Assembly (NCBI RefSeq): GCF_001425705.1
Contig: NZ_LMDC01000028.1
Span: 248,946-312,945, forward strand
DNA length: 64,000 nucleotides
Reading direction: 5' to 3'
Source: Pelomonas sp. Root1217
GTDB taxonomy: Bacteria > Pseudomonadota > Gammaproteobacteria > Burkholderiales > Burkholderiaceae_C
The position numbers were made by a program, and so were the translations under genes. Shown in pieces: positions 5,055-60,204 of this stretch (its first letter is position 1; every line of letters starts with the position of its first letter). Under the pieces are notes generated by a model, which was not told where the DNA came from, ran no database searches, and saw only the letters and a list, made by a program, of their open reading frames with translations.

Positions 5055-5065
5055 GGCGAGGGTCC

Positions 5066-32338: not shown

Positions 32339-32354
32339 ATTCATAATTATGAAT
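32339..32354. promoter_or_regulatory. 16-bp palindrome, probable GntR operator
   Basis: ATTCATAATTATGAAT is a perfect 16-bp palindrome in the short gap between the divergent mutase and GntR genes. AT-rich palindromes of this size are typical of FadR/FCD-type GntR operators. It overlaps an upstream in-frame ATG (32349) of the regulator, which argues for the later start at 32379. Confidence 0.7.
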
Positions 32355-32378
32355 TCAGAATCGCTACACTCGGCCGCC

Positions 32379-33353: not shown

Positions 33354-36300
33354 ATGGCAAGCATCGTCCCCTTCATCCCGGTCTCCAAGATCCCTGGCCT
33401 CACGACCACGTCGATCCGGGATTTCACGACCGAAGACTGGGCTGCCTTCAGCACCGACCAGCTGATTGCGCTGACCACCGTACAGGCCGCTGTGATCACC
33501 TCCAGCGGCCTTTCTGTCTTGAGCAGCGACCAACTCCGCGCTTTCCAGACCGAAGACCTGCGTGCCATTTCGACAGCCTCCATCGGCGGCTTCAACTCCG
33601 ACCAGATCGGTGTCCTGACCACCGAGCAGCTGCAAGCCCTGAGCACCGGCCAGATCCTGCAGCTGAGCACCGCCCAGTTGCAGGGCTTCAATGCCGCCGA
33701 CATGGTGGCCCTGACCACCGCCCAGGTCGGCGCCCTGACCTCGACACAAGCCAAGGGCTTGTCGACGGACCAGCTGTCGGCCATGGAAGCGACCGACATC
33801 CGCTTCATCACCACGGCCGCTCTGCGCGCCCTGACCAGCACCCAGTTGGACGGCCTGACCTCCGACCAGCTGCGCGGCCTTTCGTCCAGCCAGATCCTCG
33901 CCCTGACCACCGCCCAGGTCAGCACGCTGAACACCGACGATCTGAACAGCCTCGGGACCGACCAGGTCAACAAGTTCTCCACGGCCCAGGTCCAGTCGCT
34001 GACGACCGCCCAGCTCAGCCACCTGAGCACCGACAGCCTCAACGCGATGGGCTCGGCCCAGTTCGCCTCGCTGTCGTCCAGCCAGGTGGGCTCGCTGACC
34101 TCCGACCAGCTGCCCAAGATGGAGACGGCCGACCTGCGCGCCATCACCACTGCGGCACTGCGCGGCCTGAGTTCGGACCAGATCCAGACGCTGACCTCCG
34201 ACGAGGTCGCCAGCCTGAGCACCGCCCAGATCGGCGCGCTGATGACGGCCCAGATCCAGGGCCTGACGGCCGCCGACATGGCGGCACTGGACACCGCCCA
34301 GGTGGCGGTGCTGAGCTCGGCCCAGGCCCAGTCGTTGTCCACCGACCAGCTGTCCGCCATTGAAGCAGCCGACATGAGGTCGCTGACGACGGGGGCGCTG
34401 CGCGCCCTGTCCAGCACCCAGCTCGACGGCCTGACCTCCGACCAACTGCGGGCCTTAAGCTCCAGCCAGGTCAATGCCCTGACCACCGACCAGGTCCGCA
34501 CGCTGAACACGGACGACCTGAACAGCTTGTCGTCCGACCAGTTCAACAAGCTCTCCACCGCCCAGGTCGCGGTGCTGACGACGGCCCAGTTGAGCCATCT
34601 GACGACGGACAGCCTCAACGCGATGGGCTCGACCCAGTTCGCCGCGCTGAACTCGACGCAGTTCAGCGCGTTGACGTCCGACCAGCTGCCGACGATGGAG
34701 ACGGCCGACCTGCGCGCCGTCACGACCGCCGCACTGCGCGGCCTCTCCTCCGACCAGATCCAGACGCTGACTTCCGATGAAGTGGGCGCACTGACCACCG
34801 GCCAGATCGCGGCCCTGACGACGGTGCAGGTCAAAGGCCTGACGGCCGGCGACATGACGGCCCTGGGCACCGCCCAGATCGCCGCGCTGGGCTCGGCCCA
34901 GGTGTCGGCCCTGAACACCGACCAGCTGTCCGCCATCGAAGCGGCCGACATGAGGTCACTGACGACAGCGGCCCTGCGCGCCCTGTCCAGCACTCAGCTC
35001 GACGGCCTCACGTCCGACCAGCTGCGCGGCCTGACCTCCGGCCAGGTCAACTCGCTGACCACGGCCCAGGTCAGCACGCTGAACACCGACGACCTGAACG
35101 CCCTCTCGTCCGACCAGTTCAACAAGCTGTCGACAGCCCAGGTCCAGTCGCTGACGAGCACTCAGCTCAGCAACCTGACGACGGACAACCTGAACGCCCT
35201 GGGCACGGCCCAGTTCGCCACGCTGTCGTCCAGCCAGTTCGGCTCGCTGACGACCGACCAGCTCTCCAAGATGGAGTCGGCCGACCTGCGCTCGGTCACG
35301 ACGACGGCCCTGCGCGGCCTGTCCTCCGACCAGATCGAATCGCTGGCCTCCGACGTGGTGGCCAGCCTCACGACGGCGCAGATCGGCGCGCTGACGACGG
35401 CCCAGGTCAAGGGCCTGGAGGCCGACGACATGGCCGCCCTGGGTACCGCCCAGATCGCGGCCCTGAGCTCGGTCCAGGCGGCCGCGCTGTCCACCGATCA
35501 GCTGTCCGCCATCGAGGCGGCCGACATGAGGTCACTGTCGACGGGCGCGCTGCGCGCCCTGACCAGCACCCAGCTCGATGGCCTGACCAGCGACCAGCTG
35601 CGCGCCCTCTCCTCCAGCCAGATCAACTCGCTGACCACCGACCAGGTCCGCACGCTGAACACGGACGACCTCAACAGCCTGGCGTCCGACCAGTTCAACA
35701 AGCTCTCCACCGCCCAGGTGCAGGCGCTGACGACCGCCCAGCTGAGCAGCCTGACTTCCGACAGCCTCAATGCGATGGGCTCGGCCCAGTTCGCCACGCT
35801 GTCGTCGGTCCAGTTCGGTTCGCTGACCACCGACCAGCTGTCCCAGCTCGAGACGGCCGACCTGCGCGCCGTGACGACCGCCGCCCTGCGCGGCCTGAGC
35901 TCCGATCAGGTCCAGGCGCTGACCTCCGATGAGGTGGCCAGCTTCAGCACCGCCCAGATCGGCGCGCTGACGACGGCCCAGATCCAGGGGCTGCAAGCCG
36001 TCGACATGACGGCCCTGGGTACCGCCCAGATCGCAGTCCTGAGCTCGGCCCAGGCCCAGTCGCTGAGCACGGACCAGCTGTCCGCCATTGAAGCTGCCGA
36101 CATGCGCTCGCTGACGACGGCGGCCCTGCGCGCCTTGTCCAGCACCCAGCTCGACGGCCTGACCTCCGACCAGTTGCGCGCCCTGTCGTCCAGCCAGATC
36201 AACGCGCTGACCACCGCCCAGGTCAGCACGCTGAACACCGATGACCTCAACGTCCTGACGTCCGACCAGTTCAACAAGCTCTCCACGGCCCAGGTCCAGT

Positions 36301-42300: not shown

Positions 42301-43694
42301 CGCAGGTGATGTCCCTGTCCACCGCGCAGATACAGGGTCTGGCCGCGGCCGACCTGACGGCCATGGGCTCGGCGCAGGTCGCTGTGCTGACCACGGCCCA
42401 GGTGAATTCGCTGTCCACCGACCAGATCGTGGCCATCGACTCCGACGACCTGGCCAAGCTGACTTCGGCATCGCTGCAGGCCATTACCAACACCCAGCTG
42501 GGTGCGCTGACGACCGATCAGTTGACCGGCCTGGGCACCCGCGTGTCGGTGCTGACGACCAGCCAGATCAACAACCTGGCCACCGACGACCTGAACACCT
42601 TCACGACGGCGCAGTTCGCCTCCTTGAGCTCCACCCAGGTCAAGGCCTTCACGAACTCGCAGATCGCGGCGCTGGAAACCGACGACCTGCGCGCGCTCAC
42701 CACGGCCCACGTCGCCGCGATGAGCAATGCGCAGATCCAGGCCATCACCAGTGACCAGTTCAGCACGCTGAAGGCGACGCAGATCACGGCGCTGACCACG
42801 GCGCAGGCGGCGGCCCTGACCACGGATCAGATCCACAGCCTCACGACGGATCAGATCAGCGGCCTGGAAACCCGCGACATCACCGCCATGAGCATGGCTC
42901 AGCTCGACGCGCTGCAAGGCACGACCTTCGGCGAGATGAGCGCGGCGCAGATGAACGCCTACTTCAACGTCACGCCCATCGTGCTGGACCTGGACGGCCA
43001 CGGCGTCAACACGCTGGCAGCCGCCCAGGGCGTCAACTTCGATCTGCTGGGCACCGGCCAGGTCAACAAGGTGGGCTGGGTGGCTGGCGGCGATGGCCTG
43101 CTGGTGATGGACCGCAACCATGACGGCCTCATCAACAGCGGCGGCGAGCTCTTCGGCATGGGCACCGTGCTGGCCAACGGCAAGCATGCCAAGGATGGCT
43201 ACGCCGCCATGGCCGAGCAGGACAGCAACCATGACGGCAAGCTCGACAGCCACGACGCCAACTGGAAGCAGCTGCAGGTCTGGGTCGATGCCAACCACGA
43301 TGGCAAGACCGATGCCGGCGAGCTGAAGACGCTGGACGAGCTGGGCGTCACCTCGCTGGACCTGAATGCCACCAAGGGCTCCGGGTCAGACAGCGGCAAC
43401 CTCATCGGCCTGGTGTCCAGCTACACGACGACCGACGGTGGCAAGCACGACGTGGCCGACGTCTGGTTCGCCAAGGACGTGCAGCCGCAGAAGGCCGACG
43501 ACGGCAAGGACGCGACGGTGAGCCTGCACGACGTGCTGGCGCCACCAAGCGCCCCGCTGCTCGGTGCCGAACACGTCGACCTGGCCAAGGCGGCCGTGCC
43601 ACATCCGTCGGCCGACGCCCACCTTGCGGCCATCGACCGCAAGCTGGCCGAGGACGACGAGTTGCGACGCAACAACGGCGGCAACTGGGTATGA
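33354..43694 (+). CDS. Giant octad-repeat protein 1 (3446 residues)
   Basis: Function unknown; probably secreted or surface-exposed. ATG 33354 is chosen because AGG lies 7 nt upstream and it aligns residue for residue with the second giant protein; an ATG 27 nt earlier lacks this support. Residues 1-16 are unique, with no signal peptide. About 397 octads follow, pattern [ST][ST]x[QD][ILVF]xx[LMF]. From E145 they form 15 periods of 24 octads. Residues about 3207-3446 are a different module: TPIVLDLDGHG, then EF-hand-like loops at 3253 (DRNHDGLINSGGE), 3290 (DSNHDGKLDSHD) and 3312 (DANHDGKTDAGE), and a charged tail ending RRNNGGNWV. I saw no Cys; Trp occurs only in the end regions. No stop or frameshift in 10.3 kb argues for selection. 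Confidence 0.95.
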   Translation: MASIVPFIPVSKIPGLTTTSIRDFTTEDWAAFSTDQLIALTTVQAAVITSSGLSVLSSDQLRAFQTEDLRAISTASIGGFNSDQIGVLTTEQLQALSTGQILQLSTAQLQGFNAADMVALTTAQVGALTSTQAKGLSTDQLSAMEATDIRFITTAALRALTSTQLDGLTSDQLRGLSSSQILALTTAQVSTLNTDDLNSLGTDQVNKFSTAQVQSLTTAQLSHLSTDSLNAMGSAQFASLSSSQVGSLTSDQLPKMETADLRAITTAALRGLSSDQIQTLTSDEVASLSTAQIGALMTAQIQGLTAADMAALDTAQVAVLSSAQAQSLSTDQLSAIEAADMRSLTTGALRALSSTQLDGLTSDQLRALSSSQVNALTTDQVRTLNTDDLNSLSSDQFNKLSTAQVAVLTTAQLSHLTTDSLNAMGSTQFAALNSTQFSALTSDQLPTMETADLRAVTTAALRGLSSDQIQTLTSDEVGALTTGQIAALTTVQVKGLTAGDMTALGTAQIAALGSAQVSALNTDQLSAIEAADMRSLTTAALRALSSTQLDGLTSDQLRGLTSGQVNSLTTAQVSTLNTDDLNALSSDQFNKLSTAQVQSLTSTQLSNLTTDNLNALGTAQFATLSSSQFGSLTTDQLSKMESADLRSVTTTALRGLSSDQIESLASDVVASLTTAQIGALTTAQVKGLEADDMAALGTAQIAALSSVQAAALSTDQLSAIEAADMRSLSTGALRALTSTQLDGLTSDQLRALSSSQINSLTTDQVRTLNTDDLNSLASDQFNKLSTAQVQALTTAQLSSLTSDSLNAMGSAQFATLSSVQFGSLTTDQLSQLETADLRAVTTAALRGLSSDQVQALTSDEVASFSTAQIGALTTAQIQGLQAVDMTALGTAQIAVLSSAQAQSLSTDQLSAIEAADMRSLTTAALRALSSTQLDGLTSDQLRALSSSQINALTTAQVSTLNTDDLNVLTSDQFNKLSTAQVQSLTTSQLSNLTTDNLNAMGSAQFATLSSTQFGSLTSDQLPTLETADLRAVTTAALRGLSSDQILTLTSDEVAGLSTGQIASLSATQVQGLEAADMAALSTAQVAVLSSTQVQALSTDQLSAIDAADMKSLTTAALRALSSTQIDGLTSDQLRALTSAQLNALTTAPQIVGLNTDDLNVLTTDQIARLSTSQIQALTTTQLSNLVTDSLNAMGSAQFATLSSNQFGSLTTDQLSKMETADLRAVTTNALRGLNSDQIQSLTSDEVGSLSTGQIAALTTAQVKGLEAADMTAMGTAQVAALTSAQAQNLSTDQLSAIDASDMRALTTAALRALSSTQLDGLTSDQLRALSSSQINSLTTDQVRTLNTDDLNSLTSDQFNKLSTAQVAVLTTTQLSSLATDNLNAMGSAQFATLNSSQLGSLTSDQLPKMETADLRAVTTAALRGLSSDQVLTLTSDEVSSLSTAQIASLTTSQVQGLTAADMTALGTAQVAMLSSAQAAALNTDQLAAIDAADMKSLTTAALRALSSTQLDGLTSDQLRALSSSQISSLTTDQVRTLNTDDLNSLASDQFNKLSTAQIQVLTTTQLSNLTTDNLNALGSAQFASLNSTQFGSLTSDQLPKLETADLRAVTTAALRGLSSDQVLTLTSDEVASLSTAQIGSLTTSQIQGLTAADMTALGTAQVAVLSSTQAQSLSTDQLSAIDAADMKSLTTAALRALSSTQLDGLTSDQLRSLTSTQLNALTTNPQVISLNTDDLNVLTTDQIARLSTSQIQALTTTQLSNLATDSLNAMGSAQFATLSSSQFGSLTTDQLSKLETADLRAVTTNALRGLSSDQVQSLTSDEVSSLSTGQVAAFTTAQVKGLTANDMTALSTAQVAALNSAQAAALDTDQLSAIDAADMKSLTTAALRALSSAQLDGLTSDQLRALTSAQLNALTTSPQIVGLSTDDLNVLTTDQIARLSTGQIQALTTTQLSNLVTDSLNAMGSAQFATLSSNQFGSLTTDQLSKMETADLRAVTTNALRGLSSDQVQSLTSDEVGSMTTAQIATLTTAQVKGLTAGDMTALGTAQVAALSSAQAQNLSTDQLSAIEAADMKSLTTATLRALTSTQLDGLTSDQLRALSSSQINSLTTDQVRTLNTDDLNSLTSDQFNKLSTAQVQVLTTAQLSNLTTDNLNAMGSAQFATLNSTQLGSLTSDQLPSMETADLRAVTTAALRGLSSDQILTLTSDEVGSMTTAQIASLSATQVKGLTAGDMTALGTAQVGVLSSTQAAALSTDQLSAIDASDMRSLTTAALRSLSSTQLDGLTSDQLRALSSSQINSLTTDQVRTLNTDDLNSLASDQFNKLSTAQVQVLTTTQLSNLSTDSLNALGSAQFATLNSNQFGSLTSDQLPKLETADLRAVTTAALRGLSSDQILTLSSDEVSSLSTAQIASLTTSQVQGLTAADMTALSTAQVAVLSSAQVQSLSTDQLAAIDASDMKSLTTAALRALSSTQIDGLTSDQLRGLTSTQLNALTTNPQIIGLNTDDLNVLTTDQIARLSTSQIQALTTSQLSNLGTDSLNAMGSAQFATLSSSQFGSLTTDQLAKLETADLRAVTTNALRGLSSDQVQSLTSDEVSSLSTGQVAAFTTAQVKGLTAADMTALSTAQVAALSSAQAQNLSTDQLSAIDAADMKSLTTASLRALSSTQLDGLTSDQLRALTSAQINSLTTDQVRTLNTDDLNSLTSDQFNKLSTAQVAVLTTAQLSSLASDNLNAMGTAQFATLNSSQFGSLTSDQLPKLETADLRAVTTAALRGLSSDQILTLSSDEVSSLSTAQIGSLTTSQVQGLTAADMTALGTAQVAVLSSAQAFALSTDQLSAIETGDIRFLTTTALRALTSTQLDGLTSDQLQSLTSAQVNSLTTAQLSTMNSDDLNAFTTDQFARMSTGQVQALTASQLSHLTTDDLTALGTQHYAVMNATQFGSLTTDQLPNLQTADLRAVTTAALSSLSSDQIASLQTEHIAALSTAQVMSLSTAQIQGLAAADLTAMGSAQVAVLTTAQVNSLSTDQIVAIDSDDLAKLTSASLQAITNTQLGALTTDQLTGLGTRVSVLTTSQINNLATDDLNTFTTAQFASLSSTQVKAFTNSQIAALETDDLRALTTAHVAAMSNAQIQAITSDQFSTLKATQITALTTAQAAALTTDQIHSLTTDQISGLETRDITAMSMAQLDALQGTTFGEMSAAQMNAYFNVTPIVLDLDGHGVNTLAAAQGVNFDLLGTGQVNKVGWVAGGDGLLVMDRNHDGLINSGGELFGMGTVLANGKHAKDGYAAMAEQDSNHDGKLDSHDANWKQLQVWVDANHDGKTDAGELKTLDELGVTSLDLNATKGSGSDSGNLIGLVSSYTTTDGGKHDVADVWFAKDVQPQKADDGKDATVSLHDVLAPPSAPLLGAEHVDLAKAAVPHPSADAHLAAIDRKLAEDDELRRNNGGNWV
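33786..42437 (+). repeat. 576-bp tandem array, 15 periods (gene 1)
   Basis: Each unit is 24 octads (192 codons). Unit starts (the E/D of SAIEAADMRSL-type octads) fall at 33786 and every 576 bp after it, ending at 42438. The total of 8652 bp equals 15 x 576 plus 12; the 12 bp are four codons, one in each of the four units carrying a nine-residue octad (TT[ANS]PQ[IV][VI][GS]L). No other insertion or deletion has occurred. Confidence 0.95.
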
Positions 43695-43714
43695 AGTCCG
43701 TGAATTCGTTCAGG

Positions 43715-43740
43715 ACCGTTCGGCGAATCCGCCGAACGGT
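43715..43740 (+). terminator. Strong hairpin after giant gene 1
   Basis: ACCGTTCGGCG-AATC-CGCCGAACGGT is a perfect 11-bp stem with a 4-nt loop, 20 bp past the stop codon. There is no T-run directly after it, so it may only stabilise the mRNA or cause partial termination before giant gene 2. Confidence 0.55.
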
Positions 43741-43795
43741 CGGCCTCTGGACGGAAAACCCGGCCTTTTTGCCGGTTGCTCCAGCGGACTCCTCC

Positions 43796-43803
43796 CTAGC
43801 ATG
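43796..43803 (+). promoter_or_regulatory. Shared leader element CTAGCATG (gene 2 copy)
   Basis: TCCTCCCTAGCATGACA, with the core 245 bp before the second giant gene start, mirrors the copy at 33108. Its place suggests that each giant gene has its own copy of the same promoter or leader instead of one operon promoter. Confidence 0.35.
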
Positions 43804-44040
43804 ACAGCACGAGCCCACTCCGTCGCGGCGCTCCAGGCGGGATCGCACCCCGCCTGCAACCGCATCGGCTTGGGTTCGCGCTCCAGTTTCCTTGTCTCTC
43901 AGGCACGTCGGCTTGGCCGCTCGACACGCCGGGGCAAAGGCTCAGATCAGCACAACGCTTCCAGTTTCGGGGGCGGGCCAGAAATGGCCCAACGCCGCCA
44001 TGCCGCAAGGCAAGGCGGCCATCAGTACAGGTGAGAAAAC

Positions 44041-50000: not shown

Positions 50001-53000
50001 CGCTGACCTGCGTGCCGTCACGACGGCCACCCTCAACGGCCTGTCTTCCGACCAGATCGGCGCGTTGGCCAGCGATGCCGTCGGCTCGCTCACGACGGCG
50101 CAAGTGGCCTCGCTGGGCACCGCCCAGATCGACGGCCTGACCACGGGTGACATGGTCGCACTGACCTCGGCCCAGGTCGCGGCCATCAGTTCGACCCAGG
50201 CCGGCAGCCTGTCCACCGCCCAGATTGCCGCCATCGAAACCGGCGACGTCAAGTCGCTGACGACTGGCGCCCTGCGCAATCTGTCGTCCGACCAGCTGGA
50301 CGCCTTCACCAGCGACCAGTTGCGTGCGCTCAGCAGCGGCCAGATCAATTCCCTGACCACGGGCCAGATCAATACGCTCGGCACGGCGGACCTGAACAGT
50401 CTCACCAGCAGCCAGTTCGCCAACCTGTCCTCGGGCCAGGTCCAGGCGCTGACCAACACCCAGCTCGCCAACCTGGCGACAGACAACCTCAATGCCCTGG
50501 GCACCGCTCAGTTCGCGGCGCTGTCGTCCAGCCAGTTCGGTGCGCTGACCACCGGCCAACTGGGCAAGCTGGAGACGGCCGACCTGCGCGCCGTCACCAC
50601 TGCAGCCCTCAATGGCCTGTCCTCAGACCAGGTCGGTGCGCTCGCCAGTGACGCGGTCGGCTCGCTGACCACCGCTCAAGTCGCTTCGCTGGGCACCGCT
50701 CAGATCGACGGCCTGACCACGGGTGACATGGTCGCCCTGACCTCCGCCCAGATCGCTTCGCTGAACTCCACGCAGGCAGGCTCTTTGTCCACGGCCCAAC
50801 TGGCTGCGATCGAGACGGCCGACATCAAGTCGCTGACGACCGGCGCCCTGCGCAATCTGTCCTCCGACCAGCTCGACGCCTTCACGAGTGACCAGTTGCG
50901 CGCCCTGAGCAGCAGCCAGATCAACTCGCTGACCACCAGTCAGATCAACACGCTGGGCACCGCCGACCTGAACAGCCTGACCAGCGGCCAGTTTGCCAAC
51001 CTGTCCTCCGGTCAGGTTCAAGCGCTGACCAACACCCAGCTCAGCAATCTCGCCACTGACAACCTCAACGCCCTGGGCACCGCCCAGTTCGCGGCGCTGA
51101 GTTCCAGCCAGTTCGGCGCCCTGACCACCAGCCAGTTGGGCAAGCTGGAGACGGCCGATCTGCGTGCCGTCACGACCGCGTCGCTCAACGGCCTGTCCTC
51201 AGACCAGGTCGGTGCGCTGGCCAGTGACGCCGTGGGCTCGCTGACGACCACTCAAGTGGGCTCGCTGGGTACCGCCCAGATCAAGGGCCTGACTACCGGC
51301 GACATGGTCGCCCTGACCTCGGCCCAGATCGCTGCCATCAATTCGACCCAGGCTGGTAGCCTGTCCACTGCGCAAATCGCTGCCATCGAGACGGCCGACG
51401 TCAAGTCGCTGACCACCGGCGCCCTGCGCAACCTGTCCTCCGACCAGCTCGACGCCTTCACCAGCGACCAGTTGCGCGCCTTGAGCAGCGGCCAGGTCAA
51501 TTCGTTGACGACGGCCCAGATCAACACGCTGGGCACGGCCGACCTGAACAGCCTCACCAGCAGCCAGTTCGCCAACCTGTCGTCCGCGCAGGTTCAGGCG
51601 CTGACCAACACCCAACTCGCCAACCTGGCCACGGACAACCTCAACGCACTGGGCACGGCCCAGTTCGCGGCGCTGTCATCCAGCCAGTTGGGCGCGTTGA
51701 CCACTGGCCAGCTCGGCAAGCTCGAAACGGCTGATCTGCGCGCCGTCACGACCGCCGCATTGAACGGCCTGTCTTCCGATCAGGTCGGCGCCCTGGCCAG
51801 TGACGCCGTGGGCTCGCTGACGACCGCTCAAGTGGCCTCACTGGGCACCGCCCAAATCAAGGGCCTGACCACCGGCGACATGGTCGCGCTGACCTCAGCC
51901 CAGGTCGCTGCCATCAATTCGACCCAGGCCGGTAGCCTGTCCACGGCGCAAATCGCTGCGATCGAGACGGCCGACGTCAAGTCGCTGTCCACCGGTGCCC
52001 TGCGCAACCTGTCCTCCGACCAGCTCGACGCCTTCACCAGCGACCAGCTCCGCGCCTTGAGCAGCAGCCAGGTCAACAGCCTCACCACGAGCCAGGTCAA
52101 CACGCTCGGCACGGCCGACCTGAACAGCCTGACCAGTGGCCAGTTCGGCAACCTGTCCTCGACCCAGGTCCAGGCGCTGACGAGCACCCAGCTCAGCAAC
52201 CTCGCCACAGACAACCTGAACGCGCTGGGCACCAGCCAGTTCGCTTCCCTGAACTCCGGCCAGTTCGGCTCGCTGACCACCGCCCAACTCGGCAAGCTCG
52301 AGACCGCCGACCTGCGCGCCGTCTCGACGACCGCGCTCAACGGCCTGTCTTCCGACCAGGTCGGCGCCCTGGCCAGCGACGCTGTTGGCTCGCTGACCAC
52401 GGCACAGGTCGGCTCGCTGGGCACCGCCCAGATCAAGGGCCTGACCACCGGCGACATGGTCGCCCTGACCTCGGGCCAGATTGCCGCCATCAACTCCAAC
52501 CAGGCGGGCGCACTGTCCACCGCCCAGATCGCTGCCATCGAGACGGCTGACGTCAAGTCGATCTCTACCGGCGCGTTGCGCAACTTGTCCACCGATCAGC
52601 TCGATGCACTGACGAGCGACCAGCTGCGCGCCCTGTCGTCCACCCAGCTGAACGCGCTGACCACCAGCCCGCAGCTCGTCAACATCTCCACGGGCGACCT
52701 GAACGTGCTGACGACGGGCCAGATGGCCAATCTGTCGACGGCGCAGATCCGTTCGCTGACGACAGACCAGCTCGGCAACCTGGCGACCGACAACCTCAAC
52801 GCGCTGGGCACTGCCCAGTTCGCGGCCCTGTCGTCCAGCCAGTTCGGCGCGCTCAGCACCAGCCAGCTGGCCAAGCTCGAAACGGCTGACCTGCGTGCCG
52901 TCACGACCGCAGCCCTCAATGGCCTGTCTTCCGATCAAGTTGGTGCCCTGGCCAGCGACGCCGTCGGCTCGCTGACGACGGCGCAAGTCGCCTCGCTGGG

Positions 53001-56000
53001 CACCGCCCAGATCAAGGGCCTGACCACGGGTGACATGGTCGCCCTGACCTCGGGCCAGGTCGCCTCGCTGAACTCCACGCAGGCAGGCAGCCTGTCTACC
53101 GCGCAACTGGCCGCGATCGAGACTGCTGACGTCAAGTCGCTGACGACTGGCGCCCTGCGCAACCTGTCGTCCGACCACCTTGACGCCTTCACCAGCGACC
53201 AACTGCGCGCGCTCAGCAGCAGCCAGGTCAACAGCCTCACCACGAGCCAGGTCAACACGCTCGGCACGGCCGACCTGAACAGTCTGACCAGCGGCCAGTT
53301 CGCCAACCTGTCCTCGGGCCAGGTCCAGGCGCTGACCAGCACCCAGCTCGGCAACCTCGCCACCGACAACCTGAACGCGCTGGGCACCAGCCAGTTCGCT
53401 TCCCTGAACTCCGGCCAGTTCGGCTCGCTGACCACCGCCCAGCTCGGCAAGCTCGAGACCGCTGACCTGCGCGCCGTCACGACGGCCGCCCTTAACGGCT
53501 TGTCTTCCGACCAGGTCGGCGCTCTGGCCAGCGACGCCGTCGGCTCGCTGACCACGGCACAGGTGGGCTCGCTGGGCACGGCCCAGATCAAGGGCCTGAC
53601 CACGGGCGACATGGTCGCCCTGACCTCGGCCCAAATTGCCTCCATCAACTCCAACCAAGCGGGTGCGCTGTCCACCGCCCAGATCGCCGCCATCGAGACC
53701 GGTGACGTCAAGTCCATCTCCACCGGCGCCCTGCGCAACCTGTCGACGGACCAACTCGACGCCCTCACGAGCGACCAGCTGCGCGCGCTGAGCTCGACGC
53801 AGCTCAATGCGCTGACGACCGCCCCGCAGGTCAGCAATCTGTCGACGGCCGATCTGAATGTGCTGACCACCGGCCAGATTGCCAATCTGTCGACAGCCCA
53901 GGTCCGCGCGCTGACCACCGACCAGCTCGGCCACCTGACCACCGACAACCTCAATGCGCTGGGCACCGCTCAATTCGCGGCGCTGAGTTCCAGCCAGTTC
54001 GGTGCGCTGAGCACCAGCCAACTGGGCAAGCTCGAAACCGCTGACCTGCGTGCCGTCACGACCGCCGCCCTCAATGGCCTGAGCTCCGACCAGATCGGTG
54101 CGCTGGCCAGCGACGCCGTCGGCTCGTTGACCACTGCCCAGATCGCTGCACTCGGCACCGACCAGATCAAGGGCCTGACCACGGGTGACATGGTGGCCTT
54201 GACCTCGGCCCAGGTCGCCGCCCTCAACTCCGCGCAGGCGGCTGTGCTGTCCACGGCCCAGATTGCCGCCATCGAGACCGCTGACGTCAAGTCGCTGTCC
54301 ACGGCTGCGCTGCGCAACCTGTCTACGGACCAGCTGGATGCCCTCACGAGCGACCAGCTGCGTGCCCTGTCCTCCACCCAGCTCAATGCGCTGACCACCA
54401 GCCCGCAGCTCGCCAACCTGTCGACGTCCGACCTGAACTCACTGACGACCGGCCAGATGGCCAATCTGTCGACGGCCCAGGTCCGCGCGCTGACCACTGA
54501 CCAGCTCGGCCATCTGAGCACGGATAACCTCAATGCCCTGGGCACCGCCCAGTTCGCGGCGCTGAGCTCCAGCCAGTTCGGTGGCCTCGCCACCAGCCAG
54601 CTGGCCAAGCTCGAAACGGCTGACCTGCGCGCCGTCACCACGGCGGCTTTGAATGGCTTGTCCTCCGACCAGGTCGGTGCCCTGGCCAGCGATGCCGTCG
54701 GCTCGTTGTCCACGGCGCAGGTCGCCTCGCTGGGCACCGCCCAGATCAAGGGCCTGACCACCGGTGACATGGTCGCCCTGACCTCGGGCCAGATCGCCTC
54801 GCTGAACTCCACGCAGGCCGGCAGCCTGACCACGGCCCAGATCGCCGCGATCGAGACAGCCGACGTCAAGTCGCTGACCACCGGTGCCCTGCGCAACCTG
54901 TCCTCTGACCAGCTCGACGCCTTCACCAGCGACCAGCTGCGTGCGCTGAGCAGCAGCCAGGTCAACAGCCTGACCACGGCCCAGGTCAACGCCCTGGGCA
55001 CGGCCGACCTGAACAGCCTCACCAGCGGCCAGTTCGGCAACCTGTCTTCGACCCAGGTCCAGGCCCTGACGAGCACCCAGCTCGCCAACCTCGCCAGTGA
55101 CAACCTGAACGCCCTGGGCACGGCCCAGTTCGCAGCCCTCACTTCGGGCCAGTTCGGCGGCCTGAGCACCAGCCAACTGGCCAAGCTCGAAACCGCTGAC
55201 CTGCGCGCCGTGACGACGGCCGCCCTCAATGCCCTGAGCTCCGACCAGATCGGTGCCCTGGCCAGCGACGCGGTCGGCGCCCTGTCCACGGCGCAAGTCG
55301 CCTCGCTGGGCACCGCCCAGATCAAGGGCCTGACCACGGGTGACATGGTCGCCCTGACCTCGGCCCAGGTCGCCGCCATCAACTCGGCCCAGGTGGCCGG
55401 CCTGTCCACCGCCCAGATCGCGGCCATCGAGACGGCCGACATCAAGGCCCTGTCGACGGCTGCCCTGCGCAACTTCTCGACCGACCAACTGGACGCGCTG
55501 ACCAGCGACCAGCTGCGTGCGCTGTCCTCGGCCCAGCTCAACGCGCTGAGCACCAGCCCGCAGTTCGCCAACCTGGGTACCGCCGACCTGAACGCGCTGA
55601 CCACCGGCCAGGTCGCCAGCCTGTCGACGGGGCAAGTCCGTGCGCTGACTTCCGATCAGCTTGGCAACCTGAGTACCGACAACCTCAACGCCCTGGGAAC
55701 CGCTCAATTCGCGGCGCTGAGCTCCAGCCAGTTCGGCGCCCTCGCCACCAGCCAGCTGGCCAAGCTCGAGACGGCCGACCTGCGCGCCGTCACGACGGCA
55801 GCCCTCAACGGCCTGTCTTCCGACCAGGTCGGTGCTTTGGCGAGCGACGCCGTCGGCGCCATGACCAGCGCCCAGGTGGCCTCGCTGGGCACCGCCCAGA
55901 TCCAGGGCTTGACCACGGGTGACATGGTCGCCCTGACCTCGGCCCAGGTCGCGGCCCTGAACTCTGCCCAGGCCGGCTCGCTGTCCACCGCCCAGGTCAC

Positions 56001-59000
56001 CGCCATCGAGACGGCCGACATCAAGTCGCTGACGACCGGTGCCCTGCGCAACCTGTCCTCCGACCAGCTCGACGCCTTCACCAGCGACCAGCTCCGTGCG
56101 CTGAGCAGCGGCCAGGTCAACAGCCTGACCACGGCCCAGATCAACACCCTGGGCACGGCCGACCTCAACAGCCTGAGCAGCGGCCAGTTCGCCAACCTGT
56201 CCACGGCCCAGGTCCAGGCGCTGACCAACACCCAGATCGGCAACCTGAAGACGGACAGCCTGAACGCCCTGGGCAGCTCGCAGTTCGCGGCCCTGTCGTC
56301 CAGCCAGCTCGGCGCCCTGACCACCAGCCAGCTGGCCAAGCTCGAAACCGGTGACCTGCGTTCGGTCTCGACGGCGTCCCTCAACGGCCTGTCGTCCGAC
56401 CAGATCGGTGCCCTGGCCAGCGACGCCGTCGGCGCCATGACCACGGCCCAGATCGCCGGCCTCGGCACGGCCCAGATCCAGGGCCTGAGCACGGCCGATA
56501 TGGTGGCCCTGACCTCGGGCCAGATCGCGGCGCTGAACTCCGCCCAGGCGGCCAGCCTGTCCACGGCCCAGATCGCGGCCATCGAGACCGCCGACATCAA
56601 GTCGCTGTCCACCGCCGCGCTGCGCAACCTGTCCACCGACCAGCTCGACGCCCTCACCAGCGACCAGCTGCGCGCCCTGTCCTCGGCCCAGCTCAATGCG
56701 CTGAGCACCAGCCCGCAGTTCGCCAACCTGGGTACCGCAGACCTGAACGCGCTGACCACCGCCCAGGTCGCCAACCTGTCCACGGCCCAGGTCCAGGCGC
56801 TGACCAGCGTCCAGCTCGCCAACCTGGCGACGGACAGCCTCAACGCGATGGGTTCGGCACAGTTCGCGGCCCTGTCGTCCAGCCAGTTCGGTGCGCTGAC
56901 CACCAGCCAGCTCGGCAAGCTCGAAACCGCCGACCTGCGCGGCGTGACGACCGCGGCCCTCAACGCGCTGAGCTCAGACCAGATCGGTGCGCTGGCCAGT
57001 GATGCCGTCGGCACGCTGACCACGGCGCAGGTCGGGTCGCTGGGCACCGCCCAGATCAAGGGCCTCAGCACGGCCGACATGGTCGCGCTGACCTCGACCC
57101 AGGTCGCGGCCTTGAACTCTGCCCAGGCCGGCACGCTGTCCACCGCCCAGTTGGCGGCCATCGAGACCGGCGACATCAAGTCGCTGTCCACGGCCGCCCT
57201 GCGCAACCTGTCCTCCGACCAGCTCGACGCCTTCACCAGCGACCAGCTGCGCGCACTGAGCAGCGGCCAGGTCAACAGCCTGACCACGGCCCAGATCAAC
57301 ACCCTGGGTACGGCCGACCTGAACAGCCTGACCAGCGGCCAGTTCGCCAACCTGTCCTCCGGCCAGGTGCAGGCCCTGACCAACGCACAGCTCGCCAACC
57401 TGGCGACCGACAACCTCAACGCCTTGGGCACCGCGCAGTTCGCTGCGCTGGGTTCCAGCCAGTTCGGCGCGCTGACCACCAGCCAGCTGGGCAAGCTGGA
57501 GACAGCCGACCTGCGCGCGGTGTCCACCGCCGCGCTGAACGCGCTGAGCTCAGACCAGGTCGCGGCGCTCGCCAGTGATGCCGTCGGCTCGCTGACCGCG
57601 ACACAGGTGGGTGCACTGGGCACGACCCAGATCCAGGGCCTGAGCACGGCCGACATGGTGGCCCTGACGTCGACGCAGATCGCCGCGATCAGCTCGACGC
57701 AAGCCGACGTGTTGTCCACGGCCCAGGTCGCCGCCATCGAGACGGCCGACATCAAGTCGCTGTCCACGGCAGCCCTGCGCAACCTGTCGTCCGACCAGCT
57801 CGACGCCTTCACCAGCGACCAGCTGCGCGCACTGAGCAGCACGCAGATCAACAATCTGACGACGGCGCAGATCAACACTCTGGGCACGGCCGACCTGAAC
57901 AGCCTGACCACCAGCCAGTTCAGCAACCTGTCGTCCGCCCAGGCCGAGGCACTCACCACCAGCCAGCTCGGCCACCTGGCCACCGACAACCTCAACGCCC
58001 TGGGCACGGCGCAGTTCGCCGCGCTGGACTCCGACCAGTTCGGCGCGCTGACCACCAGCCAGCTCGCCAAGCTGGAAACCGCCGACCTGCGCGCCATCAC
58101 GACGGCCGCCCTGGCCGGCCTGGATTCCGACCAGTTCGCCGCCCTGTCGACCGACCACATCGCCGCGCTGAGCACCGCCCAGGTGCTGTCGCTGACGACT
58201 GCTCAGCTCGACGGCTTCTCGGCAGCCGACATGACGGCGATGAGTTCGACGCAGATCTCGGTGCTGACGACGGAACAGGCAGCCTCGTTGTCGACTGACC
58301 AGATCGCGGCCATCGACGCCACGGACCTGGCCAAGCTGTCCACGGCCTCGCTGCGTGCCCTGACCGACACCCAGCTGGCAGCCCTGACGACCGACCAGCT
58401 GACCGGCCTGGCTGGCCGCGTCAATGTGCTGACGACCAGCCAGATCAACCACCTGTCCACGGACGACCTGAACTCGTTCACGGCCTCGCAGTTCGGCGTC
58501 ATGACCTCGAGTCAGGTCCAGTCCTTCAGCACCGACCAGATGAGAGCGCTGGAGACCGACGACCTGCGCGCCCTGACCACGGCCAACTTCGCGGCCCTGA
58601 GCAATGCGCAGATCGACGCCATCACCACGGCCCAGTTCACGACGCTGAAGGTGACCCAGATCACCGCGCTGACGACGGACCAGGCCGCCGCGCTGACGAC
58701 CGACCAGGTCCATGCCATCACGACCGACCAGGTCGCAGGCCTGGAGACCCGCGACATCGCCGCCATGAGCATGGCCCAGTTGGACGCGTTGACCAACGCG
58801 GCCGTCGGCGAGATGAACGGCGCCCAGCTCGACGCCTACTTCTCCAAGACGCCGATCGTGCTCGACCTGGACGGCCACGGCGTCAACACGCTGGCCGCCG
58901 CCCAGGGCGTCAACTTCGACCTGATCGGCTCCGGCCACGTGGACAAGGTCGGCTGGATTGCCGGCGGCGATGGCCTGCTCGTCATGGACCGCAACCTCGA

Positions 59001-59565
59001 CGGCATCATCAACAACGGCAGCGAGCTCTTCGGCATGGGCACCATCCTGGCCAATGGCAAGCACGCCAAGGACGGCTATGCCGCCATGGCCGAGCAGGAC
59101 AGCAACCATGACGGCAAGCTCGACAGCCACGACGCCAACTGGAAGCAGCTGCAGGTCTGGGTCGACGCCAACCATGACGGCAAGACCGACGCCGGCGAAC
59201 TGAAGACGCTGGACGAAGTGGGCATCGCTTCGCTCGACCTGAACGCCACCAAGGGTTCGGGCAGCGACCACGGCAACCTCATCGGCCTGGTCTCCAGCTA
59301 CACGACCACCGACGGTGGCAAGCACGATGTGGCCGACGTCTGGTTCGCCAAGGACGTGCAGCCGCAAAAGGCCGACGACGGCAAGGACGCGACGGTCAGC
59401 CTGAGCGACCTGCTGACCGCGCCGGCCGACGCCCTGCTGGGGGCGCCATCCGTGGACCTGGCCAGGGCAGCCCTGCCGAACGCCGACGCCCACCTCGCGG
59501 CCATCGACCGCAAGTTGGCCGAGGATGACGAGCACCGTCGCAACAACGGCGGCAACTGGATCTGA
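44041..59565 (+). CDS. Giant octad-repeat protein 2 (5174 residues)
   Basis: A paralogue of the preceding giant protein, function unknown. The ATG has AGGTGAG at good spacing. The N-terminus (MSTVIPGISPSVIPNL, 16 residues, no signal peptide) is followed by 16 octads, then 24 periods of 24 octads from E145 to D4759, about 20 more octads, and the C-terminal module from about residue 4937 (TPIVLDLDGHG). Its EF-hand-like loops start at 4983 (DRNLDGIINNGSE), 5020 and 5042, the last two identical to those of protein 1. The tail ends RRNNGGNWI. In all it has about 613 octads. At about 103 Da per residue the mass is near 530 kDa. I saw no Cys. The frame is open for 15.5 kb. The lack of a Sec signal plus the C-terminal Ca-binding module suggests type I secretion; this is inference. 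Confidence 0.95.
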   Translation: MSTVIPGISPSVIPNLSTTTIRNWTTEDYAALSTDQLIAFTTAQASVILSSSLAVLKSDQIRAFQTEDLRAIATSALAGFSSDQIQALKTDQVQALSTSQIAVLSTVQIQGLSSADMVALTSAQIGALTSAQLGNLSTAQIAAVETADIKSITTAALRNLSSTQLDAFTSDQLRALSSGQVNSLTTSQVNTLGTADLNSLSSSQFANLSTAQAQALTATQLGNLATDNLNALGTGHFAVLSSTQFGGLTTSQLAKLETADLRAVTTAALSGLSSDQVGALASDAVGSLTTSQIAALGSNQVQGLTTADMVALTSAQVSSLTSTQAAKLSTAQIAAIETADVKALTTGALRNLSSDQLDAFTSDQLRALSSGQINSLTTAQVNTLGTADLNSLTSGQFANLSSAQVQALTNTQLANLATDNLNALGTAQFAALNSSQFGALTTGQLGKLETADLRAVTTAALRGLSSDQIGALASDAVGSLSTAQVASLGTAQVKGLTTGDMVALTSGQVAALNSTQAGTLSTAQLAAIETADIKSLTTGALRNLSSDQLDAFTSDQLRALSSGQVNSLTTAQINTLGTADLNSLTSSQFANLSTAQAQALTNTQLANLATDNLNALGTAQFAALSSSQFGALTTGQLGKLETADLRAVTTAALNGLSSDQVGALASDAVGSLTTAQVASLGTAQIDGLTTGDMVALTSAQVAAINSAQAGSLSTAQLAAIETGDIKSLTTGALRNLSSDQLDAFTSDQLRALSSGQINSLTTAQINTLGTADLNSLTSGQFANLSSAQVQALTNTQLANLATDNLNALGTAQFAALSSSQFGALTTGQLGKLETADLRAVTTAALNNLSSDQVGALASDAVGSLSTAQVASLGTAQIKGLTTGDMVALTSGQVAALNSTQAGSLSTAQIAAIETADVKSLTTGALRNLSSDQLDAFTSDQLRALSSGQINSLTTAQINTLGTADLNSLTSGQFANLSSAQVQALTNAQLANLATDNLNALGTAQFAALNSSQFGALTTNQLGNLQTADLRAVTTAALNGLSSDQVGALASDAVGSLTTAQVASLGTAQIDGLTTGDMVALTSAQIASLNSTQTGSLSTAQLAAIETADIKSLTTGALRNLSSDQLDAFASDQLRALSSGQINSLTTGQINTLGTADLNSLTSSQFANLSSAQVQALTNTQLANLASDNLNALGTAQFAALSSSQFAALTTGQLGKLETADLRAVTTAALNGLSSDQIGSLASDAVGSLSTAQVASLGTAQVKGLTTGDMVALTSAQVASLNSTQAGALSTAQIAAIETADVKAISTGALRNLSSDQLDALTSDQLRALSSTQLNALTTSPQLVNISTGDLNVLTTAQMANLSTAQIRSLTTDQLGNLSTDNLNALGSAQFAALSSSQFGALTTSQLGKLETADLRAVTTAALNGLSSDQIGALASDAVGSLTTAQVASLGTAQIKGLTTGDMVALTSGQVASLNSTQAGSLSTAQLAAIETADVKSLTTGALRNLSSDQLDAFTSDQLRALSSGQVNSLTTAQINTLGTADLNSLTSGQFANLSSAQVQALTNTQLANLATDNLNALGTAQFAALSSSQFGALSTTQLAKLETADLRAVTTAALNGLSSDQVGALASDAVGSLTTAQVASLGTAQIDGLTTGDMVALTSAQIASLNSTQAGSLSTAQLAAIETADVKSLTTGALRNLSSDQLDAFTSDQLRALSSGQINSLTTSQINTLGTADLNSLTSSQFANLSSGQVQALTNTQLGNLATDNLNALGTAQFAALSSSQFGALTTGQLGKLETADLRAVTTAALNGLSSDQVGALASDAVGSLTTAQVASLGTAQIKGLTTGDMVALTSAQVAALNSTQAASLSTAQLAAIETADIKSLSTGALRNLSSDQLDAFTSDQLRALSSGQVNSLTTSQINTLGTADLNSLTSGQFANLSSGQVQALTNTQLANLATDNLNALGTAQFAALNSSQFGALTTSQLGKLETADLRAVTTATLNGLSSDQIGALASDAVGSLTTAQVASLGTAQIDGLTTGDMVALTSAQVAAISSTQAGSLSTAQIAAIETGDVKSLTTGALRNLSSDQLDAFTSDQLRALSSGQINSLTTGQINTLGTADLNSLTSSQFANLSSGQVQALTNTQLANLATDNLNALGTAQFAALSSSQFGALTTGQLGKLETADLRAVTTAALNGLSSDQVGALASDAVGSLTTAQVASLGTAQIDGLTTGDMVALTSAQIASLNSTQAGSLSTAQLAAIETADIKSLTTGALRNLSSDQLDAFTSDQLRALSSSQINSLTTSQINTLGTADLNSLTSGQFANLSSGQVQALTNTQLSNLATDNLNALGTAQFAALSSSQFGALTTSQLGKLETADLRAVTTASLNGLSSDQVGALASDAVGSLTTTQVGSLGTAQIKGLTTGDMVALTSAQIAAINSTQAGSLSTAQIAAIETADVKSLTTGALRNLSSDQLDAFTSDQLRALSSGQVNSLTTAQINTLGTADLNSLTSSQFANLSSAQVQALTNTQLANLATDNLNALGTAQFAALSSSQLGALTTGQLGKLETADLRAVTTAALNGLSSDQVGALASDAVGSLTTAQVASLGTAQIKGLTTGDMVALTSAQVAAINSTQAGSLSTAQIAAIETADVKSLSTGALRNLSSDQLDAFTSDQLRALSSSQVNSLTTSQVNTLGTADLNSLTSGQFGNLSSTQVQALTSTQLSNLATDNLNALGTSQFASLNSGQFGSLTTAQLGKLETADLRAVSTTALNGLSSDQVGALASDAVGSLTTAQVGSLGTAQIKGLTTGDMVALTSGQIAAINSNQAGALSTAQIAAIETADVKSISTGALRNLSTDQLDALTSDQLRALSSTQLNALTTSPQLVNISTGDLNVLTTGQMANLSTAQIRSLTTDQLGNLATDNLNALGTAQFAALSSSQFGALSTSQLAKLETADLRAVTTAALNGLSSDQVGALASDAVGSLTTAQVASLGTAQIKGLTTGDMVALTSGQVASLNSTQAGSLSTAQLAAIETADVKSLTTGALRNLSSDHLDAFTSDQLRALSSSQVNSLTTSQVNTLGTADLNSLTSGQFANLSSGQVQALTSTQLGNLATDNLNALGTSQFASLNSGQFGSLTTAQLGKLETADLRAVTTAALNGLSSDQVGALASDAVGSLTTAQVGSLGTAQIKGLTTGDMVALTSAQIASINSNQAGALSTAQIAAIETGDVKSISTGALRNLSTDQLDALTSDQLRALSSTQLNALTTAPQVSNLSTADLNVLTTGQIANLSTAQVRALTTDQLGHLTTDNLNALGTAQFAALSSSQFGALSTSQLGKLETADLRAVTTAALNGLSSDQIGALASDAVGSLTTAQIAALGTDQIKGLTTGDMVALTSAQVAALNSAQAAVLSTAQIAAIETADVKSLSTAALRNLSTDQLDALTSDQLRALSSTQLNALTTSPQLANLSTSDLNSLTTGQMANLSTAQVRALTTDQLGHLSTDNLNALGTAQFAALSSSQFGGLATSQLAKLETADLRAVTTAALNGLSSDQVGALASDAVGSLSTAQVASLGTAQIKGLTTGDMVALTSGQIASLNSTQAGSLTTAQIAAIETADVKSLTTGALRNLSSDQLDAFTSDQLRALSSSQVNSLTTAQVNALGTADLNSLTSGQFGNLSSTQVQALTSTQLANLASDNLNALGTAQFAALTSGQFGGLSTSQLAKLETADLRAVTTAALNALSSDQIGALASDAVGALSTAQVASLGTAQIKGLTTGDMVALTSAQVAAINSAQVAGLSTAQIAAIETADIKALSTAALRNFSTDQLDALTSDQLRALSSAQLNALSTSPQFANLGTADLNALTTGQVASLSTGQVRALTSDQLGNLSTDNLNALGTAQFAALSSSQFGALATSQLAKLETADLRAVTTAALNGLSSDQVGALASDAVGAMTSAQVASLGTAQIQGLTTGDMVALTSAQVAALNSAQAGSLSTAQVTAIETADIKSLTTGALRNLSSDQLDAFTSDQLRALSSGQVNSLTTAQINTLGTADLNSLSSGQFANLSTAQVQALTNTQIGNLKTDSLNALGSSQFAALSSSQLGALTTSQLAKLETGDLRSVSTASLNGLSSDQIGALASDAVGAMTTAQIAGLGTAQIQGLSTADMVALTSGQIAALNSAQAASLSTAQIAAIETADIKSLSTAALRNLSTDQLDALTSDQLRALSSAQLNALSTSPQFANLGTADLNALTTAQVANLSTAQVQALTSVQLANLATDSLNAMGSAQFAALSSSQFGALTTSQLGKLETADLRGVTTAALNALSSDQIGALASDAVGTLTTAQVGSLGTAQIKGLSTADMVALTSTQVAALNSAQAGTLSTAQLAAIETGDIKSLSTAALRNLSSDQLDAFTSDQLRALSSGQVNSLTTAQINTLGTADLNSLTSGQFANLSSGQVQALTNAQLANLATDNLNALGTAQFAALGSSQFGALTTSQLGKLETADLRAVSTAALNALSSDQVAALASDAVGSLTATQVGALGTTQIQGLSTADMVALTSTQIAAISSTQADVLSTAQVAAIETADIKSLSTAALRNLSSDQLDAFTSDQLRALSSTQINNLTTAQINTLGTADLNSLTTSQFSNLSSAQAEALTTSQLGHLATDNLNALGTAQFAALDSDQFGALTTSQLAKLETADLRAITTAALAGLDSDQFAALSTDHIAALSTAQVLSLTTAQLDGFSAADMTAMSSTQISVLTTEQAASLSTDQIAAIDATDLAKLSTASLRALTDTQLAALTTDQLTGLAGRVNVLTTSQINHLSTDDLNSFTASQFGVMTSSQVQSFSTDQMRALETDDLRALTTANFAALSNAQIDAITTAQFTTLKVTQITALTTDQAAALTTDQVHAITTDQVAGLETRDIAAMSMAQLDALTNAAVGEMNGAQLDAYFSKTPIVLDLDGHGVNTLAAAQGVNFDLIGSGHVDKVGWIAGGDGLLVMDRNLDGIINNGSELFGMGTILANGKHAKDGYAAMAEQDSNHDGKLDSHDANWKQLQVWVDANHDGKTDAGELKTLDEVGIASLDLNATKGSGSDHGNLIGLVSSYTTTDGGKHDVADVWFAKDVQPQKADDGKDATVSLSDLLTAPADALLGAPSVDLARAALPNADAHLAAIDRKLAEDDEHRRNNGGNWI
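44473..58314 (+). repeat. 576-bp tandem array, 24 periods (gene 2)
   Basis: Unit starts (E/D of ETADIKSL-type octads) run from 44473 to 58315, a distance of 13842 bp, exactly 24 x 576 plus 18. The 18 bp are six single-codon insertions, in the six units that carry a proline-containing nine-residue octad (for example TTSPQLVNI). The register is otherwise unbroken. Some stretches are nearly identical between distant units, such as 48421 and 53032. Confidence 0.95.
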
Positions 59566-59719: not shown

Positions 59720-60163
59720 CTAGTCGTTGCTCGGCAACTCGATGCCCTTCAGCAATTGCCGCATGGAGTCGTCGACTTCACGGCTGCGTACCCGCTGCCT
59801 GCGGCCTGAGGAGGCGAGTTCTCCAATGATCGACAGCAACGCCTCGACGTCATAGGGCTTGGCCACGAAGCCGTCGTAATCGCCGAACGATTTCTGTACG
59901 ACCTCCTCATTGGTTCCGCTCATGAACACGAACGGGATGTCGGCCCAATTCGAGTTCTGGCGCAGCGCCGTCCCGAGTTCGCCGCCGTTCATGTGGGGCA
60001 TCATGAAATCGGAGACGATCACTGCCGGTCGCTCACCGCTGAGCGTCTGCAGCGCATCACGACCGTTGGACGCCGATGTAACGCGGTAGCCGTGCGCCTC
60101 GAGGATCAGCTGCAGGACTTCCGCTGCGCCGTACTCGTCTTCCACGATCAGAATGAGCTGCAT
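59720..60163 (-). CDS. Single-domain response regulator
   Basis: From the ATG at 60163 (GAGGAG 9 nt upstream) the protein has 147 residues, nearly all receiver domain: acidic pocket in IVEDEYG, phospho-acceptor Asp in VIVSDFMMPHMNG, signalling Ser in FMSGTNEE and Lys in VAKPYD. It has no output domain. A start at 60208 would overlap the kaiC-like stop as ATGA and add 15 residues. It is last in the kinase-KaiC-receiver series and may relay phosphate to a partner elsewhere or act on the KaiC-like ATPase. Confidence 0.9.
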   Translation of the reverse strand: MQLILIVEDEYGAAEVLQLILEAHGYRVTSASNGRDALQTLSGERPAVIVSDFMMPHMNGGELGTALRQNSNWADIPFVFMSGTNEEVVQKSFGDYDGFVAKPYDVEALLSIIGELASSGRRQRVRSREVDDSMRQLLKGIELPSND

Positions 60164-60204
60164 CTGCGGTGGCTCCTCTACCCGTTGTGCTCGCATGGAA
60201 GCGA

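Follow-up and report, generated by a model that had tools for sequence, protein, structure and literature searches.

Giant octad-repeat proteins A and B of Pelomonas sp. Root1217: candidate type I secretion substrates with a calcium-type C-terminal module and a linked GT41 gene

LapA is a giant, repetitive adhesin that leaves the cell through a type I secretion system (T1SS), and serine-rich-repeat adhesins are examples of large exported adhesins that are served by a glycosyltransferase. To our knowledge, the targets of the bacterial OGT-like enzymes of glycosyltransferase family GT41 are largely unknown. Two further systems can be compared: SiiE, a giant T1SS adhesin built of Ig domains, and HMW1/HMW1C, in which a glycosyltransferase also serves a large exported adhesin, HMW1, which leaves the cell by two-partner secretion and carries an Asn-linked sugar. 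Here we describe a tandem pair of genes, A and B, in a 64,000-nucleotide stretch of DNA from Pelomonas sp. Root1217 (contig NZ_LMDC01000028.1, positions 248,946 to 312,945; referred to as the window). Like the giant T1SS adhesins, the encoded proteins are very large, repetitive and linked to T1SS genes, but instead of the Ig domains of SiiE they have a predicted superhelix of short helices, together with a linked GT41 gene. They differ from HMW1 in that the linked genes encode a T1SS and an OGT-type GT41 enzyme, the glycosylation of A and B being presumed. From genes and models, we consider it fairly probable that A and B are octad solenoids with a calcium cap, exported by a T1SS to the cell surface and probably O-glycosylated.

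A preliminary description of this stretch, made from the sequence, reported A and B as two co-oriented open reading frames (ORFs) encoding proteins without Cys, and both points hold at the coordinates given in Table 1. The counts of 397 and 613 that it gave for the octapeptide pattern [ST][ST]x[QD][ILVF]xx[LMF] proved to be the lengths of the arrays divided by 8. The strict pattern has 184 matches in A and 261 in B (means of 2.4 and 2.0 after shuffling, 20 shuffles each), and a relaxed octad pattern has 328 and 459. Ser and Thr together account for 27.5% of A and 25.6% of B. The arrays have a period of 192 residues, corresponding to 24 octads, with some units of 193 residues, and self-identity at a lag of 192 residues is 0.51 for A and 0.61 for B, against a median of 0.08 over lags. 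Comparison of the units of exactly 192 residues (9 of A and 15 of B) showed amino-acid identities of 82% within A, 88% within B and 67% between A and B. Mismatches between these units are more frequent at codon position 3 (0.298 in A, 0.311 in B) than at position 2 (0.093 and 0.060), indicating purifying selection on the protein. The C-terminal modules, which the preliminary description had recognized as common to both proteins, are 88% identical. The pair may have arisen by tandem duplication, followed by homogenization inside each gene, and the intergenic region suggests that A and B are probably two transcription units. The mechanical ORF of A opens 9 codons before 33354, and the start at 33354 matches the N-termini found in genomes G009 and G018. 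No signal peptide was seen by eye in A or B. ARAGORN reported a minus-strand tRNA-Ala within gene B (58016-58104 of the window), which is probably spurious because it is absent from the Rfam list.

A search of A against Pfam identified the repeat as PF20080 (ALTTAQ repeat), with 2148.5 bits over 117 stretches (cut-off 26.4). For B, the Pfam and NCBIfam scans covered residues 1-1320 and 4321-5174, which scored 1025.2 and 467.2 bits against PF20080. On these scores, A and B belong to this family. The pair had been proposed to be a probable undescribed system, which is not supported for the repeat itself: it falls in a curated, named family, and the Protein Data Bank (PDB) holds an entry with similar octads. 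No functional account of PF20080 was found in the open-access literature, preprints excepted. A published account of a partnership of octads, T1SS and GT41 was likewise not found within the same scope. NCBIfam gave nothing above cut-off for A or the two scanned parts of B. The PHROGs search returned phrog_15773, a family of unknown function, along with several weaker ones and, over the C-terminal module, a profile labelled 'protease'.

Several unrelated Pfam models exceeded their whole-protein cut-offs in A (CAAP1, 214.9 versus 25; Phage_TAC_7, 48.8 versus 25; LRR_EndoS, 33.2 versus 27.9; HTH_25, 30.4 versus 24.6), mostly with no single stretch passing. These matches were taken as compositional, and the predicted fold consists of short helices throughout. 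The LRR reading was rejected on the same model, with LRR_EndoS having no stretch that passes alone and the LRR chains retrieved from the PDB also taken as compositional. An RTX reading was rejected on the absence of GGxGxD from A and B and of any HemolysinCabind match at E<=1 in A and the two scanned parts of B, and Ig-like and pentapeptide readings on the absence of any such match among those listed by Pfam. The rejection of RTX and LRR agrees with what had been proposed from the sequence. Public records label octad proteins as 'heme utilization protein' or 'ICE nucleation protein' (L183, L188 and other plasmids), labels for which no sequence support was seen. The Caulobacter vibrioides control genome gave matches in the PF20080, GT41 and Peptidase_C93 searches.

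The fold of the array was predicted with AlphaFold2 from 384 residues of B (45385-46536) and 30 aligned stretches. The model (pLDDT 94.4, pTM 0.81) has a helix of 4-6 residues for each octad, 48 in all, in keeping with the chain of very short helices that had been suggested earlier. The nearest solved relative of the repeats by sequence is PDB 9ZEM (HeliScrew4), identified by phmmer (E 2.3e-10 and 1e-13) and by a profile search (E 6.9e-22); LRR proteins came next with weaker scores. 9ZEM is also a chain of octads, of type LTPEQIAAL, but it is short (120 residues), and the likeness is one of sequence. Its regularity suggests that it is a designed protein. A Foldseek search of a PDB copy to 2026-04-08 showed no close fold among the best 50 of 581 matches, and 9ZEM was absent from these 50. 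The top-ranked match was the mesothelin superhelix, with TM <=0.38 among the mesothelin rows in the best 50, but its sequence, at 12-16% identity, is unrelated. Against viral models, the Foldseek matches were weak (TM <=0.29 among the 50 listed).

Near the C-terminus of B, ~168 residues are homologous to the self-processing module of FrpC (E 8.2e-34), for which the structures 6sjw and 6sjx are available (PMC7078468). The predicted structure of the B module matches 6sjw with a TMt of 0.79 (pLDDT of the whole model 76.1), and past the module the model continues into a linker of low confidence, followed by a terminal helix. The B alignment was placed by hand on the residue numbering of PMC7078468. 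In this mapping, B is identical to FrpC at D419, D421, D462, N464, E474, D499, N501, D503, D521, N523, D525, E532, D456, D579, W451 and W519. The cleavable D414 is replaced by Thr, D478 by Met and D423 by His, and N468 has no match by hand count of the alignment. Most of the FrpC calcium ligands are kept in the octad module as aligned here.

In A, the residue preceding the first Pro of the module is also Thr. A tree of 99 modules contains 88 of octad type, all with Thr (60) or Ser (28) at the position of the cleavable Asp; the other 11 comprise two of RTX type with Asp, one RTX-labelled row with Arg, and eight with Thr or Ser. Across the 79 named loci described below, the motif was found in 76, of which 70 are of octad type (Thr 49, Ser 21) and six are not (Thr 4, Ser 2). 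Thr/Ser is not exclusive to octad proteins, because the modules of three loci with at most one octad match before the module (L050, L051 and L145) carry Thr too. Self-processing activity of the octad module was rejected on the missing cleavable Asp, which is replaced in A and B by Thr (Thr-Pro for Asp-Pro) and in all 88 octad-type modules of the tree by Thr or Ser. The module thus resembles that of FrpC in sequence, predicted fold and most ligands, but lacks Asp-Pro and caps an octad array near the C-terminus rather than belonging to an RTX protein. The preliminary description was right that a calcium-loop module is shared by A and B, and missed that it is a homolog of the self-processing module without the cleavable Asp. 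An RTX-type protein of the Root1217 genome (L029) contains one of the two modules with Asp in the tree. On contig C31 of this genome, an RTX protein (L058, 10664-14740) carries an Asp-Pro self-processing module, and a short ABC-exporter-like fragment near it is perhaps the remains of a decayed T1SS.

Type I secretion, which the preliminary description had proposed for A and B, is supported by genes that lie on the same contig beyond the window, and so out of reach of that description, downstream of B and on the opposite strand. They encode an outer-membrane protein (OEP, ~22 kb from B), HlyD (~23 kb) and an ATP-binding cassette (ABC) exporter (~25 kb), and together with a TPR-containing GT41 gene (251.4 bits) they span 22-29 kb from B. 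The ABC exporter is of the LssB class (TIGR03375, 767.7 bits; cut-off 693.1), and the HlyD is of the type I class (TIGR01843, 313.7 bits; cut-off 208.65). Glycosyltransferase and GSCFA genes sit closer to B than these genes, and the equivalent neighborhood in G018 also contains DegT and FdtA/hexapeptide genes. On contig C9 of the Root1217 genome (L024, 5678-15995), genes for an HlyB-class ABC, HlyD and OEP stand beside those for a matrixin-type metalloprotease, a sulfotransferase and an APS kinase.

The linkage is kept in relatives. A survey of 60 genomes, Root1217 included, was tallied by hand; the genomes are related and the counts are not independent. The C-terminal module was matched in 28 of the 60 genomes and was of octad type in 20, with octads seen in 19 of these and the tail only in G004. 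LssB lies on the same contig as the octad-type C-terminus, 5-28 kb away, in 16 of the 20 genomes (the others being G004, G016, G017 and G031, with short contigs in G004 and G016), and GT41 lies on the same contig in 17. LssB scored above cut-off in 19 of the 20 octad-type genomes versus 11 of the 40 others. In one genome (G030:C8:271904-274976), a second LssB gene adjoins a C-terminal-module match (45% identity, 2208-aa open frame).

To a large extent the wider survey concerned Burkholderiales: its 79 named loci came from the best 80 of 242 confirmed, out of at least 594 pattern matches. GT41 was scored by tblastn at >=250 bits, with flanks up to 10 kb (79 stretches, 1.215 Mb); contig ends often cut the flanks, and the GT41 and ABC-HlyD counts are lower bounds. 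GT41 was found in the flanks of 20 loci, where fewer than one would be expected (145 pieces per ~260 Mb in the 60 genomes), and in 14 of these 20 it has the orientation of the octad gene and is no more than 600 nt from its stop codon. An ABC and HlyD pair was found in 14 loci, four of them with an LssB close to that of Root1217. NCBIfam typing covered five of the ten non-LssB ABC loci and one HlyD: the ABC segments of L108, L112, L121, L133 and L152 were closest to the HlyB model, these partial stretches scoring 564-579 bits, below its cut-off of 725.55, and the HlyD of L112 scored 305.2 bits, above cut-off. Such HlyB-like ABC genes with HlyD adjoin octad genes in other genera. C-terminal ends with two hydrophobic residues were present in 4/4 close-LssB loci versus 0/14 distant-ABC loci, the latter hand-picked, with the ABC typed in five of them; they include L107, L109 and L119, which have no HlyD match, and leave out L131, L143 and L156, which have a weak ABC match. 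Octad genes split between different frames were seen in L059-L061, L187 and L188, which may reflect assembly error in long repeats or real decay.

At the scale of the phylum, PF20080 was detected at E 1e-7 in 17 of 299 genomes, including Root1217; 15 of them come from a single other family and one from a third family. Of the 15 genomes, 13 were examined, and five (G093, G100, G104, G132 and G136) contain octads, HlyD and GT41; here an HlyD of the type I class is no more than 5 kb from the octads, and GT41 no more than 13 kb. These five belong to a single genus with many HlyD and GT41 genes per genome, and the clustering may be one evolutionary event. The cap module is absent from all four complete C-termini examined in this family (G104, G124, G163 C92 and G175), and a pattern search of the G251 stretch found no octad ORF. 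Genomes of this family can be very rich in GT41 pieces, with 27 to 41 matches in G100, G148 and G160.

A tblastn search of plasmids with octads matched 57 records. From these, 16 were taken, one per genus or label except for two from Pseudomonas, and the other 41, including a weak Spiroplasma match, were left out. Within ~15 kb of the octads, GT41 was found at 8/16 loci and ABC with HlyD at 5/16; Pfam confirmed GT41 in four. Plasmid pA of Cereibacter sphaeroides 2.4.1 contains an octad gene (DQL45_RS23715, 'ICE nucleation protein'), a divergent OGT (DQL45_RS20570), a peptidase-domain ABC (DQL45_RS20575), HlyD and rfbABCD, and its octad protein has no cap module. A Pseudomonas plasmid contains an octad gene with the cap, GT41, ABC, HlyD and TolC. 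Octads, GT41 and T1SS are therefore strongly associated in certain branches, while other branches lack the association.

The repeated linkage of octads to T1SS of two classes argues strongly for the export of A and B, and the presence of GT41 beside octads in lineages that do not share the same exporter or cap argues, with moderate force, for glycosylation of the octads. We propose that the A and B chains are made in the cytoplasm without a signal peptide, and that their Ser/Thr-rich octads are probably O-glycosylated there by the linked OGT-like, TPR-containing GT41. The C-terminal tail would then route them through the LssB-class ABC exporter, the HlyD adaptor and the outer-membrane channel encoded 22-27 kb downstream. 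Outside the cell, calcium would fold the C-terminal cap, which, without the cleavable Asp, would serve for folding and not as a protease. The octads would then fold into a rigid superhelix of ~400 to 600 helices of four to six residues, and the product would be a very long filament of acidic glycoprotein, on the cell surface or close to it, that could act as an adhesin, matrix or surface coat. A broader proposal is that A and B exemplify a class of Gram-negative export systems. In these, a dedicated OGT-like GT41 would decorate the Ser/Thr of a giant octad superhelix, type I secretion would follow, and the calcium cap would descend from a self-processing module without acting as one any longer; octad proteins would be main natural substrates of many bacterial GT41 enzymes. 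This we put forward tentatively, leaning slightly against it.

Several observations weigh against export and glycosylation by the linked genes. Among the 79 named loci, 59 have no GT41 and 65 no ABC-HlyD pair in their often truncated flanks, and both GT41 and T1SS are absent within ~15 kb at 8/16 plasmid loci (Shinella, Sinorhizobium, Allorhizobium, Thioclava, Polaromonas, Pararhizobium, Roseateles XES5 and Hyphomicrobiales). The T1SS and GT41 genes of Root1217, at their distance of 22-29 kb and on the opposite strand, share no operon with A or B, the genome has a second T1SS on contig C9, and the outer-membrane protein, assigned by Pfam as OEP, scores 57.4 against the NCBIfam TolC model (cut-off 225.15). 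Octads and LssB are on separate contigs in G017, no LssB reached the limit used in G031, a genome with octads, and G010 has LssB and no C-terminal-module match. The correlation between C-terminal ends and exporter class fits a secretion signal in the tail, is confounded by phylogeny, and is not relied on. Finally, the GT41 enzyme might have a different target or take part in making a glycan. In that case A and B might be solenoids exported by the T1SS and left unglycosylated, with the GT41 and sugar genes serving a separate surface polysaccharide or another protein and co-occurring with the octads as surface-coat genes. The neighboring glycosyltransferase, DegT, FdtA-like, acetyltransferase and methyltransferase genes do resemble a surface glycan locus (the DegT, FdtA and acetyltransferase assignments having been tested in G018, not in Root1217), and half of the plasmid loci lack GT41. 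TPR-bearing GT41 enzymes are protein glycosyltransferases, however, and GT41 closely follows the octad gene in most of the named loci that have it, and stands beside octads also where the exporter is of another type or the cap is absent; we regard this alternative as rather unlikely.

An LssB-class exporter would also suit a reversible adhesin like LapA, with its N-terminus held in the outer membrane until released by a LapG-type protease, since TIGR03375 is presumably the class of LapB, and the genome contains one Peptidase_C93 gene. This gene is unlinked (C28:939 kb), and no Pfam N-terminal retention domain was found in A or in residues 1-1320 of B, which makes such a mechanism improbable. 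The homology and predicted fold of the C-terminal module would be expected of an RTX-type protein undergoing calcium-triggered clip-and-link as in FrpC, but with Thr at the D414 position in A and B, Thr or Ser in 88/88 octad modules, Met at the D478 position, and no GGxGxD, we give this very little credence. Equally hard to credit is a cytoplasmic scaffold or storage protein with incidental T1SS linkage: it would explain the lack of a visible signal peptide and the octad genes that stand alone elsewhere, but not the linkage to T1SS of two classes across several families, the calcium-type cap, or the absence of Cys. Export of A and B by the T1SS as capped and probably glycosylated solenoids would offer a function for a named repeat family that, as far as found, is uncharacterized, and would propose natural substrates for bacterial OGT-like GT41 enzymes. 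In Burkholderiales the PF20080 repeat builds very large proteins, it is also present in alpha- and gamma-proteobacteria, and a compact version of the locus (octad gene, GT41, ABC, HlyD) is available in Cereibacter sphaeroides 2.4.1. The array would add a predicted solenoid with one helix per octad to secreted proteins, and the cap appears, as judged by sequence, to be a case of a clip-and-link module that has become a plain calcium cap.

Table 1. Features of the A/B locus, in positions of the window.
Feature	Position	Strand	Remarks
GntR/FCD regulator	32349..33035	+	upstream of A
Gene A	33354..43694	+	3446 aa, 355 kDa, pI 4.1, no Cys; octad-repeat protein, PF20080
A N-terminal head (MASIVPFIPVSKIPGL...)	33354..33449	+	resembles heads of G009 and G018; no signal peptide by eye
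A octad array	33450..42974	+	~397 octad slots, units of 192/193 residues
A C-terminal module, homolog of FrpC self-processing module	42975..43478	+	via similarity to B; end approximate
A linker and C-terminal tail, last residues NNGGNWV	43479..43694	+	proposed type I secretion signal
A-B intergenic region	43695..44040	+	inverted repeats by eye
Gene B	44041..59565	+	5174 aa, 518 kDa, pI 4.1, no Cys; paralog of A
B N-terminal head	44041..44136	+	
B octad array	44137..58851	+	~613 octad slots, units of 192/193 residues
B calcium module, like FrpC self-processing module, Thr-Pro replacing Asp-Pro	58852..59355	+	end approximate
B low-confidence linker (predicted), C-terminal helix, tail ending NNGGNWI	59356..59565	+	AlphaFold2 model
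Response regulator	59720..60208	-	convergent with B
KaiC-like ATPase	60205..61545	-	convergent with B

ORFs with ends similar to those of the GntR/FCD regulator precede octad genes in G009, G011, G012 and G018. On the other side of the pair, the response regulator and KaiC-like ATPase genes are part of a group (59720-63981) that includes a hybrid histidine kinase and converges on B. Near the start of the window, a perfect 68-bp tandem duplication (462-597) lies within a cluster of tRNA genes on the minus strand (Glu, Ala, Asp, Glu, Ala); it overlaps part of the tRNA-Asp, and Rfam reports a weaker extra tRNA at 512-576.

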